Shown here: positions 1-12,816 of the stretch, piece by piece
How positions within the stretch are numbered: position 1 is the first letter of the stretch
Layout of the letters: each line of letters begins with the position of its first letter
Assembly: GCF_009937995.1 (NCBI RefSeq)
Contig: NZ_AP021881.1
Span: 620,001 to 684,000 of the forward strand
Length of the DNA: 64,000 bases
Source of the DNA: Sulfuriferula nivalis
GTDB lineage: Bacteria; Pseudomonadota; Gammaproteobacteria; Burkholderiales; Sulfuriferulaceae
Direction: 5' to 3'
Made by a program: the position numbers and the translations under genes
Notes under the pieces: model-generated
Seen by the model: the letters and a program-made list of their open reading frames with translations, nothing else
Database searches by the model: none
What the model was told of the DNA's origin: nothing

Positions 1-2
1 TC

Positions 3-842
3 TCGGTGTTGAAGAAGCTGACAAGGGAGGGTGGGCTGCCTAACCTTCAAGTATACGCGCTGACCAAAGAGGTGGACTCAGATACCGCATCTTGGGTTGG
101 GCTGGAAAATGCATTGGGCGACTTTGTTGCCGTGATCGATGCTGCAGCAGATAGCATCAATTTTCTGCCAAGTTTGTTGGAGCAGGCATTAGAGGGGGCA
201 GATGTTGTGTTCGCCTCTAATCAACAAAAACCTCGGCAAAGTTTGGCTTATCGAGCCTGTTATTCAGCCTTTAACAGTATTTATCAGACGTTCAATGGCA
301 TTCATCTAGCTAATGAAGCGCCGTCATATCGAGTGTTGAGCAAGCGGGTTGTGAATTTTATTCTGCAGCATCCTATGCCTTCGCTGACCTATCGTCATCT
401 GCCTGCCACTGGCGGTTTTACCAAAGTTAATTTAAGTTACAGCGCCAAGACGCGACCATCGCAACCCAAACGTCTGAGTGAAAGTATTGATCGTGGTATG
501 CGTTTGCTGGTTTCGACTACCCGTGGACCGATGCGTTTAGTGACGGCGCTCTCTTTGTTTGGTGCTGGTGCAAATTTATTTTATTCGTTTTATGTTATTG
601 CAGTTGCTTTGCTAAAACCGGATGTTGCGCCTGGGTGGGTGACATTATCTCTACAACAGTCGGGTATGTTCTTTTTGATTTCGCTCGTTTTGTGGATGTT
701 GGGTGAATACATTTTACATATGGCAAGCCTCTCTAATGAGGGGCCGATGTACCATGTGGCACAAGAGTTTACTAGTGCTGTTATAACTCGGCGCGAGAAA
801 CTGAATGTTGAAGAAATCCGTGCAAAAACTCATTTTTCATAA
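3..842 (+). CDS. Family 2 glycosyltransferase with C-terminal membrane anchor (5' partial)
   Basis: The reading frame is already open at the window edge, so the N-terminus is missing and the GTG at 6 is not necessarily the true start. The visible 278 residues hold the second half of a GT-A fold: an aspartate pair (D45, D49 of the visible part) and a GG loop near 136. Two hydrophobic segments follow, at about 176-202 and 219-239. Such a layout is typical of polyprenyl-phosphate sugar transferases (DPM1/GtrB/ArnC-like), which load a sugar onto undecaprenyl phosphate at the inner face of the membrane. It is the first visible gene of a dense operon with sugar-modifying enzymes and an SMR-like membrane protein. 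The substrate is unknown. Confidence 0.75.
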   Translation, partial: SVLKKLTREGGLPNLQVYALTKEVDSDTASWVGLENALGDFVAVIDAAADSINFLPSLLEQALEGADVVFASNQQKPRQSLAYRACYSAFNSIYQTFNGIHLANEAPSYRVLSKRVVNFILQHPMPSLTYRHLPATGGFTKVNLSYSAKTRPSQPKRLSESIDRGMRLLVSTTRGPMRLVTALSLFGAGANLFYSFYVIAVALLKPDVAPGWVTLSLQQSGMFFLISLVLWMLGEYILHMASLSNEGPMYHVAQEFTSAVITRREKLNVEEIRAKTHFS

Positions 843-890
843 TGATAAGCTATGCTTTATCGAATGAACCGGTGAAGGGTGGCTGTAATA

Positions 891-1997
891 ATGTATGACG
901 CAATAGTTATTGGCGGCGGTTTTTATGGTGCGGCAATTGCCGTCTACCTCAAGAAGCAGCGTGGGTTCTCGAATGTTTTGTTAATCGAGCGGGAGAATGA
1001 GTTATTGCAACGCGCCTCTTACAATAATCAGGCTCGTGTTCATAACGGTTACCACTACCCACGCAGCTTTACCACGGCTTACCGTAGCCGCATCAACCTG
1101 CCACGCTTCGTGCAGGAATATCCGCAGGCGATGAAAAGAGATTTCACCAAGCTTTATGCCATAGCCAAACGTAATTCTAAAGTTACGGCGCGGCAATTTG
1201 AACGGTTCTGTCGTGAAATAGGGGCTAAGTTAGAACCCGCACCTGATAACGTGCGTAGTTTGTTCGAGCCACGTTTGATAGAAGCGGTGTTTGTAGTCGA
1301 AGAATATGCCTTCGATGCTAACAAACTGGCCCAGTGGGCAAGGGATGAACTTAAGGAATGTGGCGTGGAAGTGCGTATGGGTACACGCGTTCAGTGCATA
1401 AAAAAAATGCAAAACGGCTTGTCGGTACAATGCGAAAACGACATGCCAGAGGCACTGAATACCCGTTATGTATTTAATTGCACATATAGCGGGCTTAATC
1501 AGTTTGGTGGGGATTTTCATGGTACGCAAACTGGGCTGAAGCATGAAATTTCTGAGATGGCTTTGATGCAAGTGCCGTCTGAATTGGCAGGTATGGGCAT
1601 CACTGTGATGGATGGCCCTTTTTTCTCTATGATGCCGTTTCCGAGTAGGGGGTTGCACACGCTGTCGCATGTTCGATATACGCCTCATCTCAGCTGGGCT
1701 GATATGGAAGGAGTTGATCCCTATCAAAGGCTGGAGAGTTACCATCGGGCAACGCGAGTGGATCGGATGGTCAGGGATGTTATGCGGTACATGCCAGCAA
1801 TAGCAGATGCCAGATATGTAGAGTCGTTATTTGAAGTGAAGACGGTATTGGTTAAGAACGAAGGCGATGATGGTAGGCCAATCTTATTTGAACGTCATGC
1901 TGAATTACCTAACTGCTATTCGATTCTCGGTGGAAAGATTGATAATATTTATGACGTACTTGAGAAGTTGGATGCGGAAGAATTTTTGCTCATTTAA
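891..1997 (+). CDS. FAD-dependent oxidoreductase (DAO superfamily)
   Basis: A 368-residue protein opening with a dinucleotide-binding beta-alpha-beta (IVIGGGFYGAAIA, GxGxxG type), which indicates FAD binding by the DAO/glycine-oxidase superfamily. The ATG at 891 puts the Rossmann strand at residue 3 and has a GAAGGG at 874-879. A GTG at 879 would add only four residues. It sits 48 nt after a membrane glycosyltransferase and 28 nt before an SDR, so a role in oxidising a sugar or lipid-linked sugar is likely. The reaction cannot be told from sequence alone. No membrane segment or signal peptide is visible, which points to a cytoplasmic protein. Confidence 0.75.
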   Translation: MYDAIVIGGGFYGAAIAVYLKKQRGFSNVLLIERENELLQRASYNNQARVHNGYHYPRSFTTAYRSRINLPRFVQEYPQAMKRDFTKLYAIAKRNSKVTARQFERFCREIGAKLEPAPDNVRSLFEPRLIEAVFVVEEYAFDANKLAQWARDELKECGVEVRMGTRVQCIKKMQNGLSVQCENDMPEALNTRYVFNCTYSGLNQFGGDFHGTQTGLKHEISEMALMQVPSELAGMGITVMDGPFFSMMPFPSRGLHTLSHVRYTPHLSWADMEGVDPYQRLESYHRATRVDRMVRDVMRYMPAIADARYVESLFEVKTVLVKNEGDDGRPILFERHAELPNCYSILGGKIDNIYDVLEKLDAEEFLLI

Positions 1998-2025
1998 AAG
2001 ATAGATAATGAATTGTGGGGTGTAG

Positions 2026-2817
2026 ATGTCTGATGCGTTGATTGGTTATACGGGATTTGTTGGTTCAACATTGCTTAAACAACATTCGTTTGAGTGCAGG
2101 TTTCGATCTGTGAATATCAATGAGATTGATGGGAGTGAATTTGATATGGTTGTGTGTGCGGCCGCTCCTGCTCAAAAATGGATCGCTAACCGCGAACCTG
2201 ACTTGGATCGTCAAAAAATTGAAGGGTTGATTGCACATCTTAAGTCAATAAAATGTAAAACTTTTGTGCTGATTAGCACGGTTGATGTTTTTAAAGCGCC
2301 TGTTGGTGTTAAAGAAGATACGCAAGTTGATGAGGTGGATTTACATCCTTATGGTTTGCATCGCCGGTTGCTGGAAAAATTCGTTGAAGGCCATTTCCCG
2401 AATCATTTGATAGTCAGACTGCCTGGTTTGGTTGGACCTGGTTTGCGTAAGAACGTGATTTTTGATTTTCAGAACAATAATAATCTTCATGCAATTGAAA
2501 GTCGTGGCGTGTTCCAGTTTTATCCGATGGTTAATCTCTGGTCGGATATTCAGACTTCACTCAAAGCCGGGTTGAAGCTTGTCCATCTTACGGCCGAGCC
2601 TATCAGTGTGGCTGAGTTGTCAGTGGCGGGCTTTGGTAAAATGTTCAATCAGAATTTTGCTAATTTGCCCGCTACATATGATATGCAGTCTAACTATGCA
2701 AATTTGTTTGGTGGTAATAGCGTTTATCAGTACAGTAAACGAGAAACTATTCAGGCAGTTCGGGCTTATGCACAATCAGAGCCAATATCAGTTACAACAA
2801 TGGGCGGGCAGGCTTGA
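2026..2817 (+). CDS. NAD(P)-dependent epimerase/dehydratase-like SDR
   Basis: A 263-residue extended-SDR-like protein. The N-terminal glycine motif (GYTGFVGS) fits NAD(P) binding. The active-site region reads STVDVF, then YGLHR where the usual YxxxK is expected, so the catalytic lysine appears replaced by arginine. The length is short for a full epimerase (about 310-340), so the substrate domain is reduced. It follows the flavoprotein by 28 nt and overlaps the next start by one base (ATGA), so the three are probably translated together. It is inferred to act on the same nucleotide or lipid-linked sugar as the neighbouring oxidoreductase; it could also be catalytically weak or structural. Confidence 0.65.
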   Translation: MSDALIGYTGFVGSTLLKQHSFECRFRSVNINEIDGSEFDMVVCAAAPAQKWIANREPDLDRQKIEGLIAHLKSIKCKTFVLISTVDVFKAPVGVKEDTQVDEVDLHPYGLHRRLLEKFVEGHFPNHLIVRLPGLVGPGLRKNVIFDFQNNNNLHAIESRGVFQFYPMVNLWSDIQTSLKAGLKLVHLTAEPISVAELSVAGFGKMFNQNFANLPATYDMQSNYANLFGGNSVYQYSKRETIQAVRAYAQSEPISVTTMGGQA

Positions 2818-3662
2818 TGAGGATTGCGATTTCAAATATTGCCTGGAACGTTTCCGAAGATGAACAGGTGGCTTCTCTGCTAAATAGCTATGGCATCGAT
2901 GCGATTGATATTGCGCCGGGTAAGTATTTTTCGGATCCGAAAAATACTAGTCCAGTTGATATTGTGCGGGTACGAGACTGGTGGCGGAGTCGCGGAATTG
3001 AGATTGCAGGAATGCAAGCGCTGCTGTTTGGTACCACAGGGTTGAATATGTTCGGTTCTGTTGATTCTCAGACTGCAATGCTGGCGCATCTGGAAGTGGT
3101 ATGTCGAATTGGTGCTGGATTGGGTGCTACGAAGTTGGTGTTTGGTTCGCCTAAAAACCGTGATTGTTCAGCGCTACCAGATGAAGATGCGCGTGATATT
3201 GCGATTGGTTTTTTCAGGCAGTTGGGAGATATTGCCAGTCGACATGGTGTGGTGATATGTCTTGAGCCAAATCCACCCTGTTATGGTGCTAACTTCATGA
3301 CTAATAGCGCCGATACGGCGAGTATTGTGACAGCGGTGGCGCATCCTTCTGTTCGCATGCAACTAGATACCGGTGCCCTTACCATAAACGGCGAGGATGC
3401 AGGGCAGGTCATTAAGGATTATGCGACCTTGATTGGTCATATTCATGCTAGCGAATCAAACCTTGTTACACTAGGCGACGGGGGGGCTGATCACAGTACA
3501 GTAGGCTTGCAATTGAGTGAGCGGCTACCTGAACTTATTGTAACCATTGAGATGTTGCTTGCCAAAAACGAATCCAATCTTGATGCAATAGAGCGAGCAC
3601 TCGGAATAGCTATTCGTTATTATCGAGGCTCCTTTGTTGCCATAACAGGGGCTGTGATATGA
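2817..3662 (+). CDS. Sugar phosphate isomerase/epimerase-like TIM-barrel protein
   Basis: 281 residues resembling the AP-endonuclease-2/xylose-isomerase TIM-barrel family. Characteristic strands are visible: VICLEPNPP with the metal-binding Glu, MQLDTGAL with an Asp, and GHIHASE with a His and Glu late in the barrel. These suggest a divalent-metal isomerase or epimerase. The ATG at 2817 overlaps the previous TGA; a TTG at 2814 would add one residue. In this operon it would interconvert a sugar or a keto-sugar intermediate. No member of known function can be named from the sequence. Confidence 0.7.
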   Translation: MRIAISNIAWNVSEDEQVASLLNSYGIDAIDIAPGKYFSDPKNTSPVDIVRVRDWWRSRGIEIAGMQALLFGTTGLNMFGSVDSQTAMLAHLEVVCRIGAGLGATKLVFGSPKNRDCSALPDEDARDIAIGFFRQLGDIASRHGVVICLEPNPPCYGANFMTNSADTASIVTAVAHPSVRMQLDTGALTINGEDAGQVIKDYATLIGHIHASESNLVTLGDGGADHSTVGLQLSERLPELIVTIEMLLAKNESNLDAIERALGIAIRYYRGSFVAITGAVI

Positions 3663-4015
3663 AATGGTTGATTTTGATTATGGGCATACTGTCTAATGCT
3701 TCTGCAAGTGTATTGGTTAAGTTGGCCATGATGCCACCTCGAAAATTTCCGAGTTTGAATGATCCAATGGGAGCCTTGAGTAATTGGCCTTTCTGGTTGG
3801 GATTGGTGCTCTATGGGGTTGCATTTTTGCTTTATGCTGCTGCATTGGCTCGTCTACCTCTGAATGTAGCGCATCCTGTGCTGACTGCTGGGGCGGTGGC
3901 AACCGTGGCTACATGTTCATATGTAATATTTCGAGAACCTTTTTACTGGACAACCATTGTGGGGATATTGCTGGTGATCAGTGGCGTAGTATTGATTACA
4001 GTGCGTGTAGGTTAA
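3659..4015 (+). CDS. Small four-helix EamA/SMR-like membrane protein, possible lipid-linked sugar flippase subunit
   Basis: 118 residues with four predicted transmembrane helices, at about 3-20, 42-62, 69-90 and 95-116. This matches the half-size transporter layout of SMR proteins and of ArnE/ArnF, which move undecaprenyl-phosphate-aminoarabinose across the inner membrane. The start overlaps the preceding stop (ATGA). It lies in the same operon as a membrane-anchored GT2 and sugar-modifying enzymes, so a flippase role for a lipid-linked monosaccharide is a reasonable inference. ArnE/ArnF act as a pair; only one such protein is visible here, so it may work as a homodimer or pair with a protein outside the window. 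Confidence 0.65.
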   Translation: MKWLILIMGILSNASASVLVKLAMMPPRKFPSLNDPMGALSNWPFWLGLVLYGVAFLLYAAALARLPLNVAHPVLTAGAVATVATCSYVIFREPFYWTTIVGILLVISGVVLITVRVG

Positions 4016-4028
4016 GTAGGGATAGGTG

Positions 4029-4874
4029 ATGATGAATTCAGATTTATCCGTAATTGAGCGCGCAAATTGGCAAGTACCTGAATTTGATACGCCATTGTGG
4101 CTTGGACGACGTCATCAATTCTGTGTGGTGATACCTGTTATCAATGAAGGCTCCCGGATCAAAAATTTACTAGATCGCATGAAAATGCACAAAATTTCTG
4201 AGGTTGCTGACATTATTATTGTGGATGGTGGCAGTACTGATGGATCGCTTGATCTCGATGTCCTAAAAGACAAAGATGTTCGAGGGCTTTTAGTAAAGAG
4301 GGGGCGTGGCAAGCTTAGTGCGCAATTGCGCTGTGCCTATGCTTTTGCGCTGGATCAAGGATACGATGGTATTGTCACGATTGACGGCAATGACAAAGAT
4401 GACCCTGCCTCTATTCCGCAATTCATTGCTACGCTCAAAAATGGATATGACTTTGTGCAAGCTTCTCGTTTTATACCCGGCGGGGTAGCCGAAAACACGC
4501 CTAAATCGAGAGATTTCGCTATTCGGTTTATTCATGCACCAATGTTAAGTTTGTTTTCCGGTTTTTCATGGACGGATACAACCCAAGGTTTTAGAGCCTA
4601 TAGTAGCAAGATGCTGTTGGATGTCAGAGTGGCACCGTTTCGGGATGTTTTTATCAGTTATGAACTGCTTGCTTATCTTTCTTATCGGGTTCCCAGGCTC
4701 GGTTATCGATGTGTCGAGTTGCCAACGATAAGGCGATATCCTCTGACGGGTGATATCCCGACTAAAATTAATGGCATCAAAGGGAATTTATCAGTGTTGC
4801 AGGTGCTTTTTAGAGCATGTTTTGGCGCCTACAATTTACCGGCTGACCATGCTGGGAAAAGGTGTCTTCAATGA
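4029..4874 (+). CDS. Family 2 glycosyltransferase, DPM1-like, without membrane anchor
   Basis: A 281-residue GT-A glycosyltransferase. It shows the nucleotide-binding strand FCVVIPVINEGSRI, the IIVDGGSTDGS acidic segment, the metal/acceptor motif TIDGNDKDDP, and a GFRAYS loop typical of dolichol-phosphate-mannose-synthase-like enzymes. Unlike the first gene of the operon it has no C-terminal hydrophobic pair, so it should be soluble or peripheral. The ATG at 4029 is preferred; GTG 4026 and the next ATG at 4032 are alternatives. It overlaps the following gene by 4 nt. Donor and acceptor are not known. Confidence 0.75.
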   Translation: MMNSDLSVIERANWQVPEFDTPLWLGRRHQFCVVIPVINEGSRIKNLLDRMKMHKISEVADIIIVDGGSTDGSLDLDVLKDKDVRGLLVKRGRGKLSAQLRCAYAFALDQGYDGIVTIDGNDKDDPASIPQFIATLKNGYDFVQASRFIPGGVAENTPKSRDFAIRFIHAPMLSLFSGFSWTDTTQGFRAYSSKMLLDVRVAPFRDVFISYELLAYLSYRVPRLGYRCVELPTIRRYPLTGDIPTKINGIKGNLSVLQVLFRACFGAYNLPADHAGKRCLQ

Positions 4875-6019
4875 AAATTTTGAATGTAAGTAATACGCTT
4901 GACCCCATAACAGGTGGTGGGGAAGCGGAAAGATCCTTTCAGATGAGTAAGTTTTTAGTTCGGTTAGGAGCTGACTGTCATGTATTGACTGTCGATACGG
5001 GATTGAGCGTTGAGAGAAAAGGTTTTCTTGGTAAAGGGGGGGTGATTGCGCTGCCGTGTCTTTTAAGAAGATTTTATATACCCAAATTTTCTTTTCGAGT
5101 AATCAATGAGCTTGTGCATGAAGCGGATATTGTGCATTTAATGGGTCATTGGACTATTCTAAATGCGTTGGTATATCTCGCGATTCGTAAAAAAAATAAA
5201 CCTTATGTGGTTTGTCCTGCAGGAGCTTTGCCAATATTTGGACGCTCAAAACTGATCAAGATGTTTTACAATTTTGTTGTTGGTAAACAAATCATACGAA
5301 ATGCTTCTATGTGCATAGCAGTGACGCCAGATGAGGAGAGAGCTTTTAAAGCTTATGGTGTGAGGCGCGAGGAGATTCAGGTGATTCCAAATGGGATTGC
5401 GGCTTCTGATTTTATGGCAGAAGATAATAAAAAATTTCGGGAAAAGTATGAACTTGGCATGCGACCCTTTATACTTTTTATGGGACGGTTGAATCTAATT
5501 AAGGGGCCCGATTTATTATTAGAGGCTTTTTGCAATGTAATGGAAAAATTTCCTGAATTCGATCTGGTATTCGTTGGTCCAGATGGTGGGATGCTTGCAG
5601 AATTACAAGTTATTGCAAAGTCTGCTGGTGCTGCAGGTCGCGTGCATTTTGTGGGTTACTTGGGGGGTGTTGATAAGTCGCATGCTTATCATGCTGCCGC
5701 TTTTTTGGCGATCCCATCACGGCATGAGGCTATGTCTATCGTGGCGCTTGAAGCCGGCATCTGTGGAACCCCCGTGTTGTTGACTGACCAGTGTGGCTTT
5801 AACCAAATCGCCGATGTTGGCGGAGGGTGGGTTGTGCCAGCCACAGTGGAAGGGATAGGTAAGGGATTGAATGAGGTTTTACGTGATGCGAGTGGAGTTG
5901 AGCGTGCATCTGTGAAAATTAAAGAATATGTAGCGGAGAGTTTTTCATGGGAGGTTGTTGTTCTTGAGTACTGTCAATTGTATTCAACTATATTAAAAGT
6001 CATTGATCATGCAAATTAA
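4871..6019 (+). CDS. Family 4 glycosyltransferase (GT-B)
   Basis: A 382-residue retaining GT-B transferase. The N-terminal half begins with a glycine-rich acceptor loop (DPITGGGEAERSF). The C-terminal half has the GRLNLIKGPDLLLEA donor-domain signature and the EX7E motif in RHEAMSIVALE, which binds the nucleotide sugar. The ATG at 4871 overlaps the upstream stop, a coupled start; the GTG at 4862 would extend into the neighbour. This is the last gene of the first polysaccharide operon and is followed by a strong terminator at 6289-6322. It is expected to add one residue of the repeat unit at the cytoplasmic face of the inner membrane. Confidence 0.85.
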   Translation: MKILNVSNTLDPITGGGEAERSFQMSKFLVRLGADCHVLTVDTGLSVERKGFLGKGGVIALPCLLRRFYIPKFSFRVINELVHEADIVHLMGHWTILNALVYLAIRKKNKPYVVCPAGALPIFGRSKLIKMFYNFVVGKQIIRNASMCIAVTPDEERAFKAYGVRREEIQVIPNGIAASDFMAEDNKKFREKYELGMRPFILFMGRLNLIKGPDLLLEAFCNVMEKFPEFDLVFVGPDGGMLAELQVIAKSAGAAGRVHFVGYLGGVDKSHAYHAAAFLAIPSRHEAMSIVALEAGICGTPVLLTDQCGFNQIADVGGGWVVPATVEGIGKGLNEVLRDASGVERASVKIKEYVAESFSWEVVVLEYCQLYSTILKVIDHAN

Positions 6020-6640: not shown

Positions 6641-6871
6641 CTTTTGGATCAATCGTTATATATTCCTCTGGGCCTCGTAGTGAGGACTATCTTTTGCTGG
6701 TGGTGTTCTATCTTGTTATTGAATGGTCGGTTACGATGGATGGTTTTAACATGGTTTCCATTTGCACTATTTACAGTATCTGCAGGAACAAAATTTGCGG
6801 AAGGTGTAAAGTGGACCCCGATTTCTGGACAATGAATTAAGATGGTAACCTGCTGTAAAAAGGAGCGGGTT

Positions 6872-7165
6872 GTGAGTGAAACAAATCGTAAGCATTTTTC
6901 GGGTGAGTTTAAAGCCAAGGTTGCAGTGGAAGCGATTCGTGGTGTCAAGACGGTTAACGAAATAGGTCAGGAATTTGGCGTGCATCCGACCCAGGTTGGA
7001 TTGTGGAAGAAAGAGTTGCAAGAACAAGCTGCTGGCTTGTTTAATGCCAAACGCGGCCCGAAGCCAGTGGATCTCTCTGCTAGTCCAGAGCGACTGTATT
7101 CCGAGATTGGCAGACTCAAAATGGAATTGGACTGGCTTAAAAAAAAGTCCGGGATCAACCCATAG
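6872..7165 (+). CDS. IS3-family transposase OrfA
   Basis: A 97-residue DNA-binding subunit with the helix-turn-helix KVAVEAIRGVKTVNEIGQEF...PTQVGLWKKEL and a C-terminal leucine-zipper-like helix (RLYSEIGRLKMELDWLKKK), as in OrfA of IS3 elements. The GTG at 6872 has a good Shine-Dalgarno (AAGGAG at 6860-6865). An ATG at 6842 would add ten residues but has a weaker site. The gene runs over a run of eight A's at 7139-7146 (A-AAA-AAG), where ribosomes can slip -1 to make the OrfAB transposase; unslipped ribosomes stop at 7165. Confidence 0.9.
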   Translation: MSETNRKHFSGEFKAKVAVEAIRGVKTVNEIGQEFGVHPTQVGLWKKELQEQAAGLFNAKRGPKPVDLSASPERLYSEIGRLKMELDWLKKKSGINP

Positions 7166-8118
7166 CACTGCGCAAGCAGTGGATTAGCCAATGCACATCT
7201 TTAGCACTCAGTCAGCAGTGTGCATTGGCGGGTGTGGCGCGATCCAGCGTTTATGCGCCCAGATTGATCAAAGCCACTGACGAACAAGAATTGGCATTGC
7301 TGACGTTGATAGACACAGAATACACACGGCATCCATTTTATGGCAGCCGCAAGATTAGGCATTACCTGAGTAGCATAGGACACCACATCAATCGCAAACG
7401 AGTGCAACGATTAATGCGCACACTGGGGTTAGCTGGCATGGCGCCAGGACCGAACACCAGTCGTGCGCACCCGCAGCATAAGATTTATCCTTACCTGCTC
7501 AGAGGTGTCGCAGTGACCCGTCCCAATCAGGTGTGGAGTACGGATATCACTTACCTGCGCCTGCCACGAGGATTCGTGTATTTGGTGGCAGTGATAGATT
7601 GGTACTCGCGCAAAGTGCTGGCATGGCGATTATCGAATACGATGGACAGTGGCTTCTGTGTGGACTGTCTGGAACAGGCACTACAGTCGCACGGCATACC
7701 TGAGTTATTTAACACTGATCAGGGCAGTCAGTTCACCAGTGACGCGTTTACGGGTGCACTCAAGGAAAACGGCATTACGATTAGCATGGATGGTCGCGGA
7801 CGGGCATTGGATAACATCTTTGTGGAACGGCTCTGGCGTAGCGTCAAGCACGAAGACGTATATTTGAAAGGCTATGCTACATTACCAGCACTGCTGCTAG
7901 GATTGACGGAATACTTTGTGTTTTATAACGCTGAACGTATCCATCAGTCACTGGGTTATAAAACACCAGACGAGGTTTATCGAACAGCCAGTGGCGGTGG
8001 TGCCAGCATCGTGGACAAGTTCACTACGTCAGGAAAAGCGTTGTTAGAAAAAGATCGAAAACCAGAAACAAAACCGGGGCAGCGCCGTGCAGCTGCATAT
8101 GAAAGGTTACCCTCTTAA
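7144..8118 (+). CDS. IS3-family transposase OrfB (DDE integrase), read by -1 frameshift
   Basis: The frame is entered at the A-run around 7139-7147 and continues VRDQPIALRKQW, the usual start of IS3 OrfB, then an HTH_21-like region and the rve DDE core. Catalytic residues are visible: D in WSTDITYL, D in NTDQGSQF and E in VERLWRS with the K/H seven residues on. The C-terminus ends KTPDEVYR plus a short tail. The first in-frame start (TTG 7225) would omit the conserved opening, so frameshifting is the more likely route. The frame is intact and its codons resemble the surrounding genome. Confidence 0.9.
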   Translation, partial: KVRDQPIALRKQWISQCTSLALSQQCALAGVARSSVYAPRLIKATDEQELALLTLIDTEYTRHPFYGSRKIRHYLSSIGHHINRKRVQRLMRTLGLAGMAPGPNTSRAHPQHKIYPYLLRGVAVTRPNQVWSTDITYLRLPRGFVYLVAVIDWYSRKVLAWRLSNTMDSGFCVDCLEQALQSHGIPELFNTDQGSQFTSDAFTGALKENGITISMDGRGRALDNIFVERLWRSVKHEDVYLKGYATLPALLLGLTEYFVFYNAERIHQSLGYKTPDEVYRTASGGGASIVDKFTTSGKALLEKDRKPETKPGQRRAAAYERLPS

Positions 8119-8579
8119 ACTCGACGTATTATTGTCTTGACGGAGGGGTCCACTTTAGTGCTTTAGTTAATAGTTATTCAGGATGGCATTCAATTACTTT
8201 GCTAGGAGACAGATTTGTAGCTGCACCTATTACTCGGTTAAATTTTTGTTGCATCTTGCTGCAGGGTTCCGGTTGATATTAAGACGGCTATTGAGGGGCG
8301 TGATGCTGGATGGATGGTTTATAGTATGATGTTGGGTGGTTTGATAGTTCTTATTTTGGCGACTGTCATAATAATTTCGTGGGGTTTATGCGCGGATGCT
8401 GCGTGCCAAAATCGATCTAATGTATATGTGCTTGGTATGTTGTTATATTGTCTGTTAACAGGGGGTCGTCATGAGATCTCGGGTTTTTCCCGTTTGGTTG
8501 TTTACCAGTCTTGTTACCATTTTATGTTTAACATATTGGCGGCAGTTGGCTTTATCTCTTTTGCGCATAAGGAGCTGAA

Positions 8580-9800
8580 TTGCGTGTTCTCATTGTAAGC
8601 CAATATTTCTGGCCGGAAAGCTTTCGCATCAACGAGGTTGCCAAAACATTACTGGAAAAGGGTGTTGAGGTCGAGGTGCTGACCGGCAAGCCGAATTACC
8701 CGCAAGGGGCGATATTTTCGGGGTATCGTGCGTGGGGATGTCAGCGAGAAACCTACAAAGATATTAACATTAACCGTATTCCGTTGTTGGCGAGAGGGGG
8801 GAGAGGGGGGTGGCGCTTGGCGTTGAACTACCTGTCCTTTGTTGTGTCTGGATTGATGTTCGCCCCTTGGATGTTGCGCAAGAAAAAATTTGATGTGGTC
8901 TTTGTCTACGCCCCTTCGCCGATACTGCAAGCTATTCCGGCGATTTTCCTTGGATGGCTGAAGGGGTGTCCGGTGGTGTTGTGGGTGCAAGATTTATGGC
9001 CGGAAAGTCTATCGGCGACGGGCTATGTGCGAAACCATGCGGTGCTCAAGATGGTCGAGTGGGTGGTGCGCTTTATCTACCAACATACTGATCTGCTCCT
9101 AGTACAGTCAAGAGCCTTCGAAGAGCCTGTTCGTATCTTGGCATCGAAAATACCCATAGCGTATTATCCCAATTCTGTGGATGAGGCTTTTTGCGTACCA
9201 ACTGTTGTCGCTGTGCCCGACATCCCGGGATTGAGTAAGGGATTCTCGGTGATGTTTGCCGGTAATATTGGTGTAGCTCAAGCGGTAGATGTAATTGTTG
9301 AAGCGGCTACTTTATTAAAGGATCATACGGATATTGGTTTTGTCGTATTAGGGCAAGGGAGTCGTTGGGAATGGATGCGTCAGGAGGTAGAAACGCGGGG
9401 TTTGACTAACCTTGATCTTCCTGGGCGATTCCCAGTGGAGATGATGCCTGGTTTAATGCAGAAAGCATCAGCATTATTAGTGACATTAACCGACCAACCC
9501 ATTTTTGCAGTAACAGTGCCGAATAAAGTGCAGGCATATATGGCGAGCGGTAAACCAATTCTTGCCTGTTTGAATGGTGAAGGCGCGCGAGTGGTAATTG
9601 AATCTGAAGCAGGTTTAACAGTGCCGGCAGAGGATGCGAAAGGCTTGGCAGTAGCCATATTGCGGTTGTATGAAATGAACCCCGTGGAGCGGGAGAAGCT
9701 AGGCTCGAATGGGCGGCATTACTATAAAACGCATTTCAATCATGACCAATTGGTCGATCAATTAATTGAACATTTTCAATTGGTGTCTCAGTCTATTTAA
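8580..9800 (+). CDS. WcaI/WbuB-type family 4 glycosyltransferase
   Basis: A 406-residue GT-B transferase opening MRVLIVSQYFWPESFRINE, the hallmark start of the WcaI/WbuB group, with NYPQG and LWVQDLWPESL motifs in the acceptor domain. The donor domain carries VMFAGNIGVAQ and TVPNKVQAYMASGKPI. WbuB-type enzymes are usually found beside fnlA-fnlB-fnlC and transfer L-FucNAc or related N-acetylated 6-deoxy-L-sugars, and such genes follow directly here. The TTG start at 8580 has AAGGAG at the right spacing. This is the first intact gene after the IS. Its donor is inferred to be the UDP-sugar made by the next three genes. Confidence 0.85.
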   Translation: MRVLIVSQYFWPESFRINEVAKTLLEKGVEVEVLTGKPNYPQGAIFSGYRAWGCQRETYKDININRIPLLARGGRGGWRLALNYLSFVVSGLMFAPWMLRKKKFDVVFVYAPSPILQAIPAIFLGWLKGCPVVLWVQDLWPESLSATGYVRNHAVLKMVEWVVRFIYQHTDLLLVQSRAFEEPVRILASKIPIAYYPNSVDEAFCVPTVVAVPDIPGLSKGFSVMFAGNIGVAQAVDVIVEAATLLKDHTDIGFVVLGQGSRWEWMRQEVETRGLTNLDLPGRFPVEMMPGLMQKASALLVTLTDQPIFAVTVPNKVQAYMASGKPILACLNGEGARVVIESEAGLTVPAEDAKGLAVAILRLYEMNPVEREKLGSNGRHYYKTHFNHDQLVDQLIEHFQLVSQSI

Positions 9801-9810
9801 GAGGTGTGTA

Positions 9811-10665
9811 ATGAGGGTATTAGTGTTGGGCGCCAGTGGCATGATTGGTAATGCCATGATCCGTGTGTTTAGTGAAAAGGAAAGTTGGGAAGTTTTTGGA
9901 ACCGTTCGATCGGGTGAAGTGAAGCGATTTTTCATCCCCACGATTGCCGAGCGGCTGGTGACGGGGATAGATGTTGAAAATCACGATACACTGGTTAAAA
10001 TTTTCGCCCAGTTACGTCCAGATGTGGTTATTAATTGTGCTGGTTTGACGAAACATTTGCCGGGCGCGGAAGATCATTTGGTGGCCATCCCCATTAATAC
10101 GTTAATGCCCCACCGGTTGGCAGGGTTATGCGATCTCGTCGGTGCACGTTTGATCCATATCAGCACGGATTGTGTTTTTTCCGGCAAAAGGGGGGAGTAT
10201 ACAGAAGATGACCCTGCGGATGCAGTCGATGTGTATGGTAAATCAAAATTTCTGGGTGAAGTTAATTACCCGCATGCGATCACTCTACGTACATCAACCA
10301 TCGGACATGAGTTGCAAAGCACACATGGCTTGCTCGACTGGTTTTTGTCACAGCATGAACAATGTAAAGGCTTTACTCGTGCGATTTTTTCTGGATTACC
10401 TACCGTTGTTTTTGCACAAGTTATTCGAGATATAGTGATACCTCGGACCGATCTGTTCGGACTGTACCATGTTGCTGGTAAACCTATCGCAAAATATGAT
10501 TTGTTGAGGTTGATTGCTGAAGCTTATGGTAAATCTATCGAGATCGTGCAAGATGATCAGTTTACGATTGATCGTTCGTTGATTGCCGATCGTTTTCATG
10601 CAGCCACAGGTTATATCGCCCCCGATTGGCCTGAGCTGATAAAATCAATGCATTCCTATCAATAG
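9811..10665 (+). CDS. RmlD-like SDR reductase, putative UDP-L-QuiNAc pathway reductase (WbvR-like)
   Basis: A 284-residue extended SDR of the RmlD type: GASGMIGNAM NAD(P) loop, HISTDCVFSGKRGEYTEDD (the typical STDYVF-like site) and catalytic YGKSK. The ATG at 9811 with GAGGTG upstream begins exactly at the Rossmann strand. It lies 17 nt before a FnlA-like dehydratase and then a FnlC-like 2-epimerase. In L-FucNAc loci the middle enzyme (FnlB/WbjC/CapF) is about 370 residues with a cupin tail. The tail is absent here, and an RmlD-like reductase in this place is the pattern of WbvR in UDP-L-QuiNAc synthesis (WbvB-WbvR-WbvD). The product assignment is an inference from that comparison. Confidence 0.7.
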   Translation: MRVLVLGASGMIGNAMIRVFSEKESWEVFGTVRSGEVKRFFIPTIAERLVTGIDVENHDTLVKIFAQLRPDVVINCAGLTKHLPGAEDHLVAIPINTLMPHRLAGLCDLVGARLIHISTDCVFSGKRGEYTEDDPADAVDVYGKSKFLGEVNYPHAITLRTSTIGHELQSTHGLLDWFLSQHEQCKGFTRAIFSGLPTVVFAQVIRDIVIPRTDLFGLYHVAGKPIAKYDLLRLIAEAYGKSIEIVQDDQFTIDRSLIADRFHAATGYIAPDWPELIKSMHSYQ

Positions 10666-10682
10666 TTTGGAATTACGAAATT

Positions 10683-11693
10683 ATGTTTAAAAATAAAGTA
10701 TTAATGATTACTGGGGGCACTGGCTCTTTTGGTAATACTGTTCTCAACCGTTTTTTGTCAACAGATGTATGTGAGATTCGTATTTTCAGTCGTGATGAGA
10801 AGAAACAGGAAGAGATGCGTATTGCGCTGAATAATGACAAGCTTAGGTTTTATATTGGCGATGTTCGAGACTACGAGAGTGTTTATCAAGCAATGAAGGG
10901 TGTGGATTATGTGTTCCATGCAGCCGCTTTGAAGCAGGTTCCATCATGTGAGTTCTACCCAATGGAAGCGGTACGAACAAATGTCATGGGCACTGAAAAT
11001 GTGATGAATGCGGCTACTGCCAATTGTGTTAAACGTGTGGTGGTGCTTAGCACGGACAAAGCGGTATATCCCATTAATGCGATGGGTATATCTAAAGCGA
11101 TGGCAGAAAAACTCATGGTGGCCAAATCTCGTATGCAGCGTGAAGGTGAGACAGTGTTCTGTGCAACGCGTTACGGCAATGTAATGGCTTCACGCGGTTC
11201 GGTCATTCCCTTATTCGTCGCGCAAATTAAAGAAGGTAAGCCACTTACGGTAACGGATCCCAATATGACTCGCTTTTTGATGTCACTTGAGGATTCCGTT
11301 GACTTGGTGCTGTATGCCTACGAGCATGGTCAGCAGGGTGACATTTTTGTACAAAAGGCACCCGCTTCGACTGTGGCAGATTTGGCACAAGCACTGACTG
11401 AATTATTTGGCGGTAAAGAAGATGCTAGGATAATTGGCACACGCCATGGCGAAAAATTGTATGAATCACTCATATCTAGAGAAGAGATGGCGCACGCTCA
11501 AGATATGGGTAACTATTATCGTATCCCAGCGGATAATCGCGATCTTAATTATGCTCAGTATTTTAGTGAGGGTGAGGAAAAGATTTCTCACTCTGAAGAT
11601 TATACTTCGCACAATACTGAGCAATTAAATGTGGAACAGGTTAAAGAATTGTTGCTGAAACTGGATTATATTAAGGAAGAATTGAATGCTTAA
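10683..11693 (+). CDS. fnlA: UDP-GlcNAc 4,6-dehydratase/5-epimerase (FnlA/WbjB/CapE/WbvB family)
   Basis: 336 residues with the family opening VLMITGGTGSFGNTVL, DVRDYESV and HAAALKQVPSCEFYPMEAV, and the site AMGISKAMAEKLM, where Met replaces the usual catalytic Tyr (MxxxK), a recognised feature of this group. It converts UDP-GlcNAc into the 4-keto-6-deoxy intermediate with C5 inversion, the entry step to UDP-L-FucNAc and UDP-L-QuiNAc. The next gene starts 8 nt before its stop, so the two are coupled. Length is normal. The enzyme family is clear; the end product depends on the reductase upstream. Confidence 0.9.
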   Translation: MFKNKVLMITGGTGSFGNTVLNRFLSTDVCEIRIFSRDEKKQEEMRIALNNDKLRFYIGDVRDYESVYQAMKGVDYVFHAAALKQVPSCEFYPMEAVRTNVMGTENVMNAATANCVKRVVVLSTDKAVYPINAMGISKAMAEKLMVAKSRMQREGETVFCATRYGNVMASRGSVIPLFVAQIKEGKPLTVTDPNMTRFLMSLEDSVDLVLYAYEHGQQGDIFVQKAPASTVADLAQALTELFGGKEDARIIGTRHGEKLYESLISREEMAHAQDMGNYYRIPADNRDLNYAQYFSEGEEKISHSEDYTSHNTEQLNVEQVKELLLKLDYIKEELNA

Positions 11694-12816
11694 GGTGATG
11701 ACTATCGTGGGTACCCGCCCCGAGTTGATTAAGATGAGCCGTGTTATTACTGAGTTTGATCAGCACACGACACATATTCTGGTGCATACGGGGCAGAATT
11801 ACGATTATGAGCTAAATCAGCTATTTTTTGAAAATCTGGGTATTCGTAAACCGGATTACTTTTTGGAAGCTGTCGGCGAAAATGCAGCTCAGACTATTGC
11901 ACGCGTGATTGAAAAGTCCGATGAGGTGATGGCAAAAGAAAACCCTGATGCAGTTTTGTTGTACGGCGATACTAATTCATGTCTAGCGGTGATTTCGGCG
12001 AAACGACGCAAGATACCGGTATTCCATATGGAAGCTGGCAACCGCTGTTTTGATCAGCGTGTGCCGGAAGAGTTGAATCGTAAGGTGCTTGATCACCTGA
12101 GCGATATTAATCTGGTGTTAACCGAACATGCCCGTCGCTACTTGATCGCTGAGGGTATTCGTCCCGAGACTATCATCAAGACAGGTTCTCACATGCGCGA
12201 AGTGCTGGATTACTACATGCCCCAGATTGAGCAGTCCGAAGTATTGAAGCAAGTTGGCTTGGAAAAGAACAAATTCTTTATCGTCAGTGCTCATCGTGAA
12301 GAAAATGTGGATACGCCTGAGAACCTTCTGGATCTGGTTGAGACATTGAATGCTTTGGCTGAAACGTATAACTTTCCCGTCATTGTTTCCACTCATCCTC
12401 GCACCAGAAAACGTTTGGATGCATTGGAGCTAGGCGAACTTAATTCGCTGATTCAGTTTGCTAAACCATTCGGATTTTTTGATTATATCAAGCTGCAAAT
12501 AGAAGCATATTGCGTTGTGTCGGATAGTGGGACTATTACCGAGGAAGCATCACTGCTAAATTTACCTGCGATCACCATACGCAATGCGCATGAGCGACCA
12601 GAAGGTATGGATGTGGGAACTTTGATTATGACTGGACTGAAAAAGGAGCGCGTGCTCGATGCGGTCAAGGTGATCATCTCGCAGCAAGATGAGAATAAGC
12701 GTGTAATGCATGCGGTAGAGGATTATGAAGCGGGGCCTGTGTCCAAACAGTTATTAAGAGTCGTGCTGAGTTATGTGGATTATATTAATCGTACAGTTTG
12801 GTCTAAATCAAGTTAA
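11686..12816 (+). CDS. fnlC: UDP-N-acetylglucosamine 2-epimerase family (FnlC/WbjD/CapG/WbvD)
   Basis: A 376-residue GT-B-fold 2-epimerase: VGTRPELIKM, HTGQNYDYELNQ and the FnlC-type HMEAGNRCFDQRVPEE (RCFD replacing the common RTGD of WecB). The C-terminal half shows SAHREENVD, SDSGTITEEA and the RNAHERPEGMD loop. It inverts C2 of the UDP-6-deoxy-talosamine or rhamnosamine intermediate to give UDP-L-FucNAc or UDP-L-QuiNAc, the last step of the pathway. The ATG at 11686 overlaps fnlA. Together with 9811 and 10683 it forms a complete three-enzyme pathway feeding the glycosyltransferase at 8580. Confidence 0.9.
   Translation: MLKVMTIVGTRPELIKMSRVITEFDQHTTHILVHTGQNYDYELNQLFFENLGIRKPDYFLEAVGENAAQTIARVIEKSDEVMAKENPDAVLLYGDTNSCLAVISAKRRKIPVFHMEAGNRCFDQRVPEELNRKVLDHLSDINLVLTEHARRYLIAEGIRPETIIKTGSHMREVLDYYMPQIEQSEVLKQVGLEKNKFFIVSAHREENVDTPENLLDLVETLNALAETYNFPVIVSTHPRTRKRLDALELGELNSLIQFAKPFGFFDYIKLQIEAYCVVSDSGTITEEASLLNLPAITIRNAHERPEGMDVGTLIMTGLKKERVLDAVKVIISQQDENKRVMHAVEDYEAGPVSKQLLRVVLSYVDYINRTVWSKSS

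Follow-up and report, generated by a model that had tools for sequence, protein, structure and literature searches.

A conserved, mobile six-gene module in Sulfuriferula nivalis that may join a sugar-rewriting enzyme trio to lipid-carrier glycosylation

Enzyme systems that convert a sugar by oxidation and reduction, or load it onto a lipid carrier, offer the closest comparisons for the genes described here. DprE1, which works with DprE2 in the conversion of decaprenyl-phosphate ribose to arabinose, is a VAO-type flavoenzyme (FAD_binding_4), and its partner is a short-chain dehydrogenase/reductase (SDR) with a YxxxK motif. Escherichia coli YcjS, YcjR and YcjQ provide a precedent for oxidation, epimerisation and reduction in series (PMC11543891). 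A three-component glycosylation system with an epimerase is already known for pentofuranoses, and its authors stated that they were aware of no further epimerases in O-antigen side-chain systems (PMC11127046). Here we analyse a 64,000-nucleotide stretch of the S. nivalis genome (contig NZ_AP021881.1, positions 620,001 to 684,000; hereafter, the window), at the start of which six genes encode a GtrB-like glycosyltransferase of family GT2 (GT2a), a flavin adenine dinucleotide (FAD) enzyme, an SDR, a triosephosphate isomerase (TIM) barrel protein, a four-helix protein of the small multidrug resistance (SMR) family and a second GT2 (GT2b). An initial annotation had grouped these with a following GT4 gene as one translationally coupled operon that may make, modify and flip a lipid-linked sugar. 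Neither the module nor its FAD-SDR-TIM trio was found described in the open-access literature, subscription papers lying outside this coverage.

Conservation and mobility of the six-gene module

Genome contigs were scanned with the FAD protein, which gave 221 relatives, and the gene content of the best 80 loci was scored by tblastn at set identity thresholds. The run GT2a-FAD-SDR-TIM-SMR-GT2b was complete in 61 of the 80, in the order of the window in 60 and rearranged in one (L024), and GT2a adjoined FAD in every locus. SMR was missing in six loci, and three had all genes but GT2b, one at a contig end (L019) and two with diverged followers (L025 and L026). The run stopped after TIM in one locus and after SDR in another, GT2a-FAD stood alone in three (with 0–2.3 kb of contig remaining), and five had the arrangement GT2a-FAD-GT2c-AKR-GtrA, in which AKR is an aldo/keto reductase. 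GT4 was detected in none of the 80 loci and is ruled out as a module member; its place is in the surrounding polysaccharide locus, as an ordinary glycosyltransferase. The seven-gene grouping proposed initially is thus reduced to six genes. By record title the carriers are mainly Beta- and Gammaproteobacteria, together with one Nitrospirae, two Chloroflexi-type records (Anaerolineae and Roseilinea) and one Nocardioides.

Because the 80 loci had been selected by the FAD gene, the parts were also searched for separately in plasmids and genomes. A search of 72,556 plasmid records returned one set of 12 with each of the proteins FAD, SDR and TIM, and with TIM a single further record, from Nitratireductor (66 bits), so that in plasmids the three middle genes are not scattered into unrelated pathways, the finding that would have spoken against the initial grouping. 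In a draw of 274 genomes from the source's class, with each protein searched at its own E threshold, FAD and GT2a matched the same three genomes and SDR and TIM the same two of these; GT2b matched those two and G006, and SMR those two, G217 and G084. One genome of the draw (G128) is probably the same as locus L016, and thus not independent of the 80 loci. GT2b also occurs outside the module: its relative in G006 (53%; L105 2-7087) belongs to a different cluster, whose other members include a STELLO-like protein, a pair of polytopic proteins, a flavoenzyme of the amine-oxidase type and a GT2 with two membrane stretches. We conclude that the six genes form a real conserved module.

Two identical inverted insertion-sequence copies bracket approximately 10.8 kb containing the module, and eight full copies of this element are present in the source genome; judged by eye, it is IS3-like. 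The bracketing and the polysaccharide setting would be in keeping with unrelated genes brought together by insertion sequences. We consider such a chance assembly practically negligible, given that the gene order is kept across many bacterial groups and that separate searches returned identical sets of plasmids.

The cassette is mobile. On the 10.8 kb Psychrobacter plasmid pA22P4 the module lies together with a polytopic protein of 479 aa and genes for mobilisation and replication. All six genes plus a polytopic protein with a sub-threshold PMT_2 match are present on a 35.7 kb IMG/VR contig (L118 3022-12384), flanked by a tail-hub gene and an S24-type repressor; the contig is prophage-like, and its module resembles lysogenic-conversion cargo. 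Exosortase genes (annotated xrtD and xrtE) were seen near the module in two Rhodobacterales plasmids (L114 10576-12228 and L117 3105-4715).

Glycosyltransferases, flippase and polytopic partner

Before residues were counted, sequences were dropped for length from the alignments of GT2a (2 of 81), FAD (3 of 84), SDR (1 of 76), TIM (3 of 75), SMR (0 of 65) and GT2b (0 of 71, one fused copy being cut), and the window sequence was then added to each. Both GT2 proteins fall in the polyprenyl-phosphate fold family of GT2, and the canonical DxD is found in neither. The GT2a family profile matches GtrB sll0501 over its full length (E 7e-31); the window protein alone stayed below the cut-off in Pfam (E 0.037). 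In the alignment to E. coli ArnC, none of the 87 GT2a sequences has the second Asp of DxD, a gap standing in its place, and 12 of them have a residue other than Asp at the first position. Six of these 12 have Asn (the Psychrobacter copy and copies from five module loci), and the other six, out of seven alphaproteobacterial copies, have Ser, Thr or Ala. The GT2b profile matches dolichol-phosphate mannose synthase (E 1e-13), with DGN replacing DxD in 72 of 72 sequences. In two plasmids (Cereibacter and Rhodobacter) GT2b is fused to a polytopic protein, and in the one from Psychrobacter GT2a and GT2b lie within a single open frame. The loss of DxD suggests that GT2a, initially described as a GT2 of the polyprenyl-phosphate type, is unlikely to be the lipid-sugar synthase and is probably a non-catalytic partner or pseudo-enzyme, and that GT2b is probably the polyprenyl-phosphate-sugar synthase, i.e., the loader.

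It is improbable, in our estimate, that GT2a is itself an active polyprenyl-phosphate-sugar synthase working through an unusual metal site, with GT2b adding a second sugar or acting elsewhere. Such activity would suit the full-length homology to GtrB, the wide retention of D105 and D106 in module copies, the equally non-canonical motif of GT2b and the occurrence of a GT2b relative in another cluster, and it is countered by the DxD losses, including those in the alphaproteobacterial copies, and by GT2b being the fusion partner of the polytopic proteins. At P102, D106 and P205 the window GT2a differs from the rest of its family, and this copy may be drifting; 3 of 80 copies lack D106.

The initial annotation had also expected a small flippase, and this slot is occupied by SMR in 64 of the 80 loci and in the window, and by GtrA in five; in 11 it was absent or not reached. 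A GtrA-family gene also lies within the module in six alphaproteobacterial plasmid regions. At the position of EmrE Glu14, which is Glu in EmrE, MdtI and MdtJ and Ser in ArnE, all 66 SMR sequences have Asn, and a drug or cation pump is rejected for want of this defining membrane residue. The profile scores (EmrE 32.6 bits, ArnE 26.1, MdtJ 23.8, MdtI 11.6 and ArnF 6.9) are slightly higher on EmrE than on ArnE or ArnF; sequence grouping therefore does not settle the function, and the separation from drug transporters expected at the outset holds for the residue and not for the score. SMR is probably a flippase of a lipid-linked sugar.

A further component had been overlooked. Using a criterion of at least 400 aa and at least six hydrophobic stretches, we detected a polytopic protein inside the module or immediately next to it in 60 of the 67 loci with five core genes (GT2a, FAD, SDR, TIM and GT2b), or in 52 under a stricter rule. 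One polytopic family was modelled from seven sequences (predicted local distance difference test, pLDDT, 67; predicted template modelling score, pTM, 0.74), and its four PDB matches below E 0.001, i.e., ArnT (9e-5), yeast OST, AftA and AglB, are all glycosyltransferases of the GT-C fold. The large polytopic neighbour may be a GT-C, with model support for the fold in this one example. Four more polytopic relatives had no Pfam match above cut-off. The candidate partner for the module of the window is a 452-aa polytopic open reading frame (ORF) with five hydrophobic stretches, directly upstream of GT2a.

Predicted chemistry and occurrence of the FAD-SDR-TIM trio

Pfam assigned the families that had been guessed for the components, i.e., a DAO-type FAD enzyme, an Epimerase-type SDR, an AP_endonuc_2 TIM barrel, a four-helix SMR protein, GT2 and GT4. 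The FAD enzyme model (pLDDT 84) is nearest to GlpD (2qcu; E 1.1e-18, template modelling (TM) score 0.69), with glycine oxidase and L-2-hydroxyglutarate dehydrogenase among the other near structures, and the enzyme probably oxidises a sugar alcohol to a ketone. The SDR is Epimerase/RmlD-like and has, as first noted for the window copy, YxxxR instead of YxxxK, with Y109 and R113 in 76 of 76 aligned sequences; it is probably a ketone reductase. All 73 TIM sequences keep an E-D-H-E tetrad, which we take to be the metal site, in the role known from ketose epimerases. The best PDB matches of the TIM profile are ketose 3-epimerases (top E 8e-13), and it also matches 6wn6, named 3-keto-D-glucoside 4-epimerase (E 2.7e-8), and E. 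coli YcjR (37 bits; orthology not shown). Replacement of SDR and TIM by an aldo/keto reductase, a further GT2 and GtrA in five of the 80 loci fits a shared oxidation with a different follow-up. A match to IolI (1i60, E 5e-7) and a weak one to myo-inosose dehydratase among the NCBIfam matches listed would allow the trio to make a non-sugar polyol, e.g., an inositol isomer carried like a sugar. We hold this to be highly improbable, with ketose 3-epimerases closer to TIM and glycosyltransferases as the neighbours.

Viral contigs were scanned with two alignments, and some contigs overlap between the two scans. With the FAD alignment (16 loci), FAD, SDR and TIM occurred together in seven loci and FAD alone in nine. 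A phage-weighted SDR alignment gave 59 loci, 36 of them with the trio: in 35, GT2a, SMR and GT2b were absent within the stretch examined, and the 36th is the prophage-like contig with all six genes. The remaining loci had SDR alone (n = 20), SDR and TIM (n = 2), or FAD and SDR (n = 1), and some of the SDR-only loci stop at a contig edge. In several of them (L145, L147, L150-L154 and similar), a YxxxR SDR without FAD or TIM was seen by eye beside aminotransferase-like and epimerase-like genes. Of 59 viral SDRs, 58 keep Y and R and the other has a gap, and the six phage-type SDRs and TIMs compared keep every catalytic residue. In FAD, by contrast, H264, R266 and D355 are conserved among the aligned bacterial module copies, and the five phage proteins examined carry other residues at these positions.

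Scanned neighbours of the viral trios included GT10, GT4, methyltransferases and carbamoyltransferases. On a 386 kb IMG/VR contig (L119 5992-9764) the trio directly precedes a T4-type beta-glucosyltransferase (PF09198, E 5.7e-15), perhaps for a DNA sugar modification of unknown kind; a scan with the FAD protein of this contig for further such trios returned the same contig only. INPHARED phage genomes gave four weak partial FAD matches, none covering 80%. A Mesorhizobium loti plasmid region likewise has the trio without GT2a, GT2b or a flippase. The lipid-carrier line and the sugar-rewriting trio are thus separable parts that are joined in the window.

With trios standing alone in this way, a soluble substrate or a glycoside becomes plausible and action at the lipid level less so, whereas the constant GT2a-FAD pair argues for membrane contact. 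We favour, at just short of an even chance, that the trio acts before or independently of lipid loading; action on a lipid-linked sugar is less favoured, and we would put it distinctly below even. A sugar modification before translocation, as initially proposed, stays plausible, and what is weakened is the lipid-linked substrate for the oxidase and reductase. A DprE-like version, in which the trio works on a polyprenyl-phosphate-bound sugar and GT2a presents the lipid to FAD, seems rather unlikely to us. It would explain why GT2a, with its membrane helices, always adjoins FAD and why the three FAD residues changed in phages, as if the substrate differed, and it has precedents in DprE1/DprE2 and in an SDR acting on a polyprenyl-phosphate pentose (PMC11127046). 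It sits poorly with the viral and M. loti trios and with the parallel AKR context, in which the GT2 changes along with the reductase.

In the scheme that we propose, FAD would oxidise a sugar hydroxyl to a ketone, the metal-dependent TIM barrel would epimerise or shift the neighbouring centre through an enediolate, and SDR would reduce the ketone to a rare stereoisomer, as the families and catalytic residues suggest. GT2b would put the product of the trio, or its precursor, onto polyprenyl phosphate, while GT2a, GtrB-like and without DxD, may be a membrane partner docking FAD and GT2b at the lipid. SMR, or elsewhere GtrA, would flip the lipid-linked sugar, and the variable GT-C would transfer it to the glycan, its variation determining the acceptor in the manner of serotype-converting gtr operons. 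We give about an even chance to this scheme, in which the six genes, and a GT-C encoded close by in most relatives, would work as a single line that decorates a surface glycan from the outer side.

Several observations weigh against this scheme. With DGN in place of DxD the activity of GT2b is itself uncertain, and most viral loci with the trio carry none of the presumed line. In the six loci without SMR no clear small flippase substitute was found in the slot. As for the GT-C, seven of the 67 five-core-gene loci have no large polytopic protein at the module, and large polytopic ORFs occur at 0.100 per kb near the module versus 0.055 per kb elsewhere in the loci (1.8-fold), so the enrichment is modest. 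The GT-C model is modest as well, with a pLDDT of 67 and TM scores of 0.39–0.48 for its four best matches. At E 0.01 ten polytopic examples matched no Pfam GT-C family, and the 452-aa ORF upstream of GT2a showed nothing above chance with GT-C proteins by Pfam, profile comparison, PDB sequences or NCBIfam.

More broadly, and tentatively, the trio may be a portable unit that inverts stereocentres of a glucose-derived sugar by oxidation, epimerisation and reduction. In bacteria its partners would be a loader, a flippase, exchangeable GT-Cs and a pseudo-glycosyltransferase serving as scaffold, which together would make up a plasmid or prophage-like surface-conversion cassette. In phages they would be Leloir glycosyltransferases and, in one contig, the T4-type DNA glucosyltransferase, so that the trio may also make a DNA or virion sugar. 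That the substrate is glucose is a guess, prompted by the relationship to YcjR and by a single neighbouring glucosyltransferase. FAD, SDR and TIM together would then mark rare sugars of unknown kind in bacterial glycans and phages. If the scheme is true, a sugar-rewriting step is built into the known logic of lipid-carrier glycosylation, and the small number of genes lends itself to tests of the chemistry.

The window locus and comparison with described systems

All seven ORFs were confirmed on the forward strand of the window (Table 1). Full-length GT2a has 334 aa, and its earliest possible start lies 163 bases upstream of the window. The translational coupling proposed initially is seen where genes overlap, i.e., at SDR/TIM (TGATG), TIM/SMR (ATGA) and GT2b/GT4, and not at the gapped junctions GT2a/FAD (36 bases), FAD/SDR (28 bases) and SMR/GT2b (10–13 bases). 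Among the matches listed, no module protein reached an NCBIfam cut-off. Ten upstream ORFs were scanned and included Polysacc_synt (Wzx-like), methyltransferases, a GT2, a WbsX glycosyltransferase, a GDP-mannose-dehydratase-like enzyme, an MBOAT protein and an AlgX-like protein; from these predicted functions, the window sits in a surface-polysaccharide locus. Farther downstream, RmlD-like, polysaccharide-synthase-like and UDP-GlcNAc-2-epimerase-like ORFs stand in a row, the first identified by the scan and the others by eye.

Table 1 Features of the module and its surroundings (window positions unless a contig is given; TIM residues are counted from the TTG at 2814).
Feature	Position	Strand	Remarks
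GT2a	1/3-842	+	3' portion of a GtrB-like GT2 (334 aa in full), membrane helices at the C terminus; gene cut by window edge
FAD enzyme, DAO fold	879-1997	+	Start GTG 879 or ATG 891; Pfam DAO 3.9e-22
SDR	2026-2817	+	GxxGxxG, S84, invariant YxxxR; Epimerase-type in Pfam
TIM barrel, predicted epimerase/isomerase	2814/2817-3662	+	AP_endonuc_2; metal tetrad E151, D185, H211, E246 complete
SMR four-helix protein	3659-4015	+	Pfam SMR/EamA/TMEM234; Asn13 at the EmrE Glu14 position
GT2b	4026/4029-4874	+	DPM-synthase/ArnC-like GT2; invariant DGN replacing DxD
GT4 glycosyltransferase	4862/4871-6019	+	Found in 0 of 80 related loci
Insertion sequence, one copy	6807-8157		Identical to the next, inverted
Insertion sequence, other copy	G000:C1:614626-615976		
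RmlD-like, polysaccharide-synthase-like and UDP-GlcNAc-2-epimerase-like ORFs	9766-12816		

The initial annotation had set the module apart from the DprE and Arn systems, and the comparison bears this out, at least one defining feature of each being absent. DprE1/DprE2 is alike in pairing a flavoenzyme with an SDR for a single sugar epimerisation. In contrast, the module FAD enzyme has a DAO and not a VAO-type fold (FAD_binding_4 was not among the 12 Pfam families listed for it up to E 0.1), a third enzyme, TIM, is present, and the SDR has YxxxR throughout; on fold and motif the module is not a DprE1/DprE2 system. The Arn system, which makes undecaprenyl-phosphate 4-amino-4-deoxy-L-arabinose (Und-P-Ara4N), shares an ArnC-like GT2, an ArnE-like flippase and, in the one polytopic family modelled, an ArnT-like GT-C fold. 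No relative of ArnA, ArnB or ArnD was found among 19 ORFs scanned around the window module, and the module was rejected as an Arn system.

YcjS-YcjR-YcjQ resembles the trio in oxidising, 4-epimerising with a TIM barrel and reducing, and the module TIM is related to YcjR. YcjS and YcjQ gave no match above the inclusion threshold with the FAD and SDR profiles, and since these dehydrogenases are unrelated in sequence to FAD and SDR, the module is not a YcjSRQ system; the ycj genes also differ in lying with transport and phosphorylase genes in the E. coli annotation. The Citrobacter pentofuranose system combines, as the module probably does, a lipid-linked sugar, a flippase, a GT-C and a sugar-converting enzyme in one locus. 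That system has a synthase that depends on phosphoribosyl pyrophosphate (PRPP), a flippase of the MATE type and a single SDR, with YXXXK, whereas the module has a GT2, SMR or GtrA, three enzymes and YxxxR in its SDR (PMC11127046).

GtrA/GtrB/Gtr three-component O-antigen glycosylation shares with the module a small SMR/GtrA-type flippase gene, GT2 proteins of the polyprenyl-phosphate fold family and a strain-variable polytopic protein that may be a GT-C, and in one case the prophage-like setting. The main text of the P. donghuensis gtrA/B/II paper names no oxidoreductase, epimerase or isomerase. What the module adds to this system is a trio that would oxidise, epimerise and reduce, together with a GtrB-like protein lacking DxD, and the module is possibly a variant of three-component glycosylation with a new enzyme unit at its centre.

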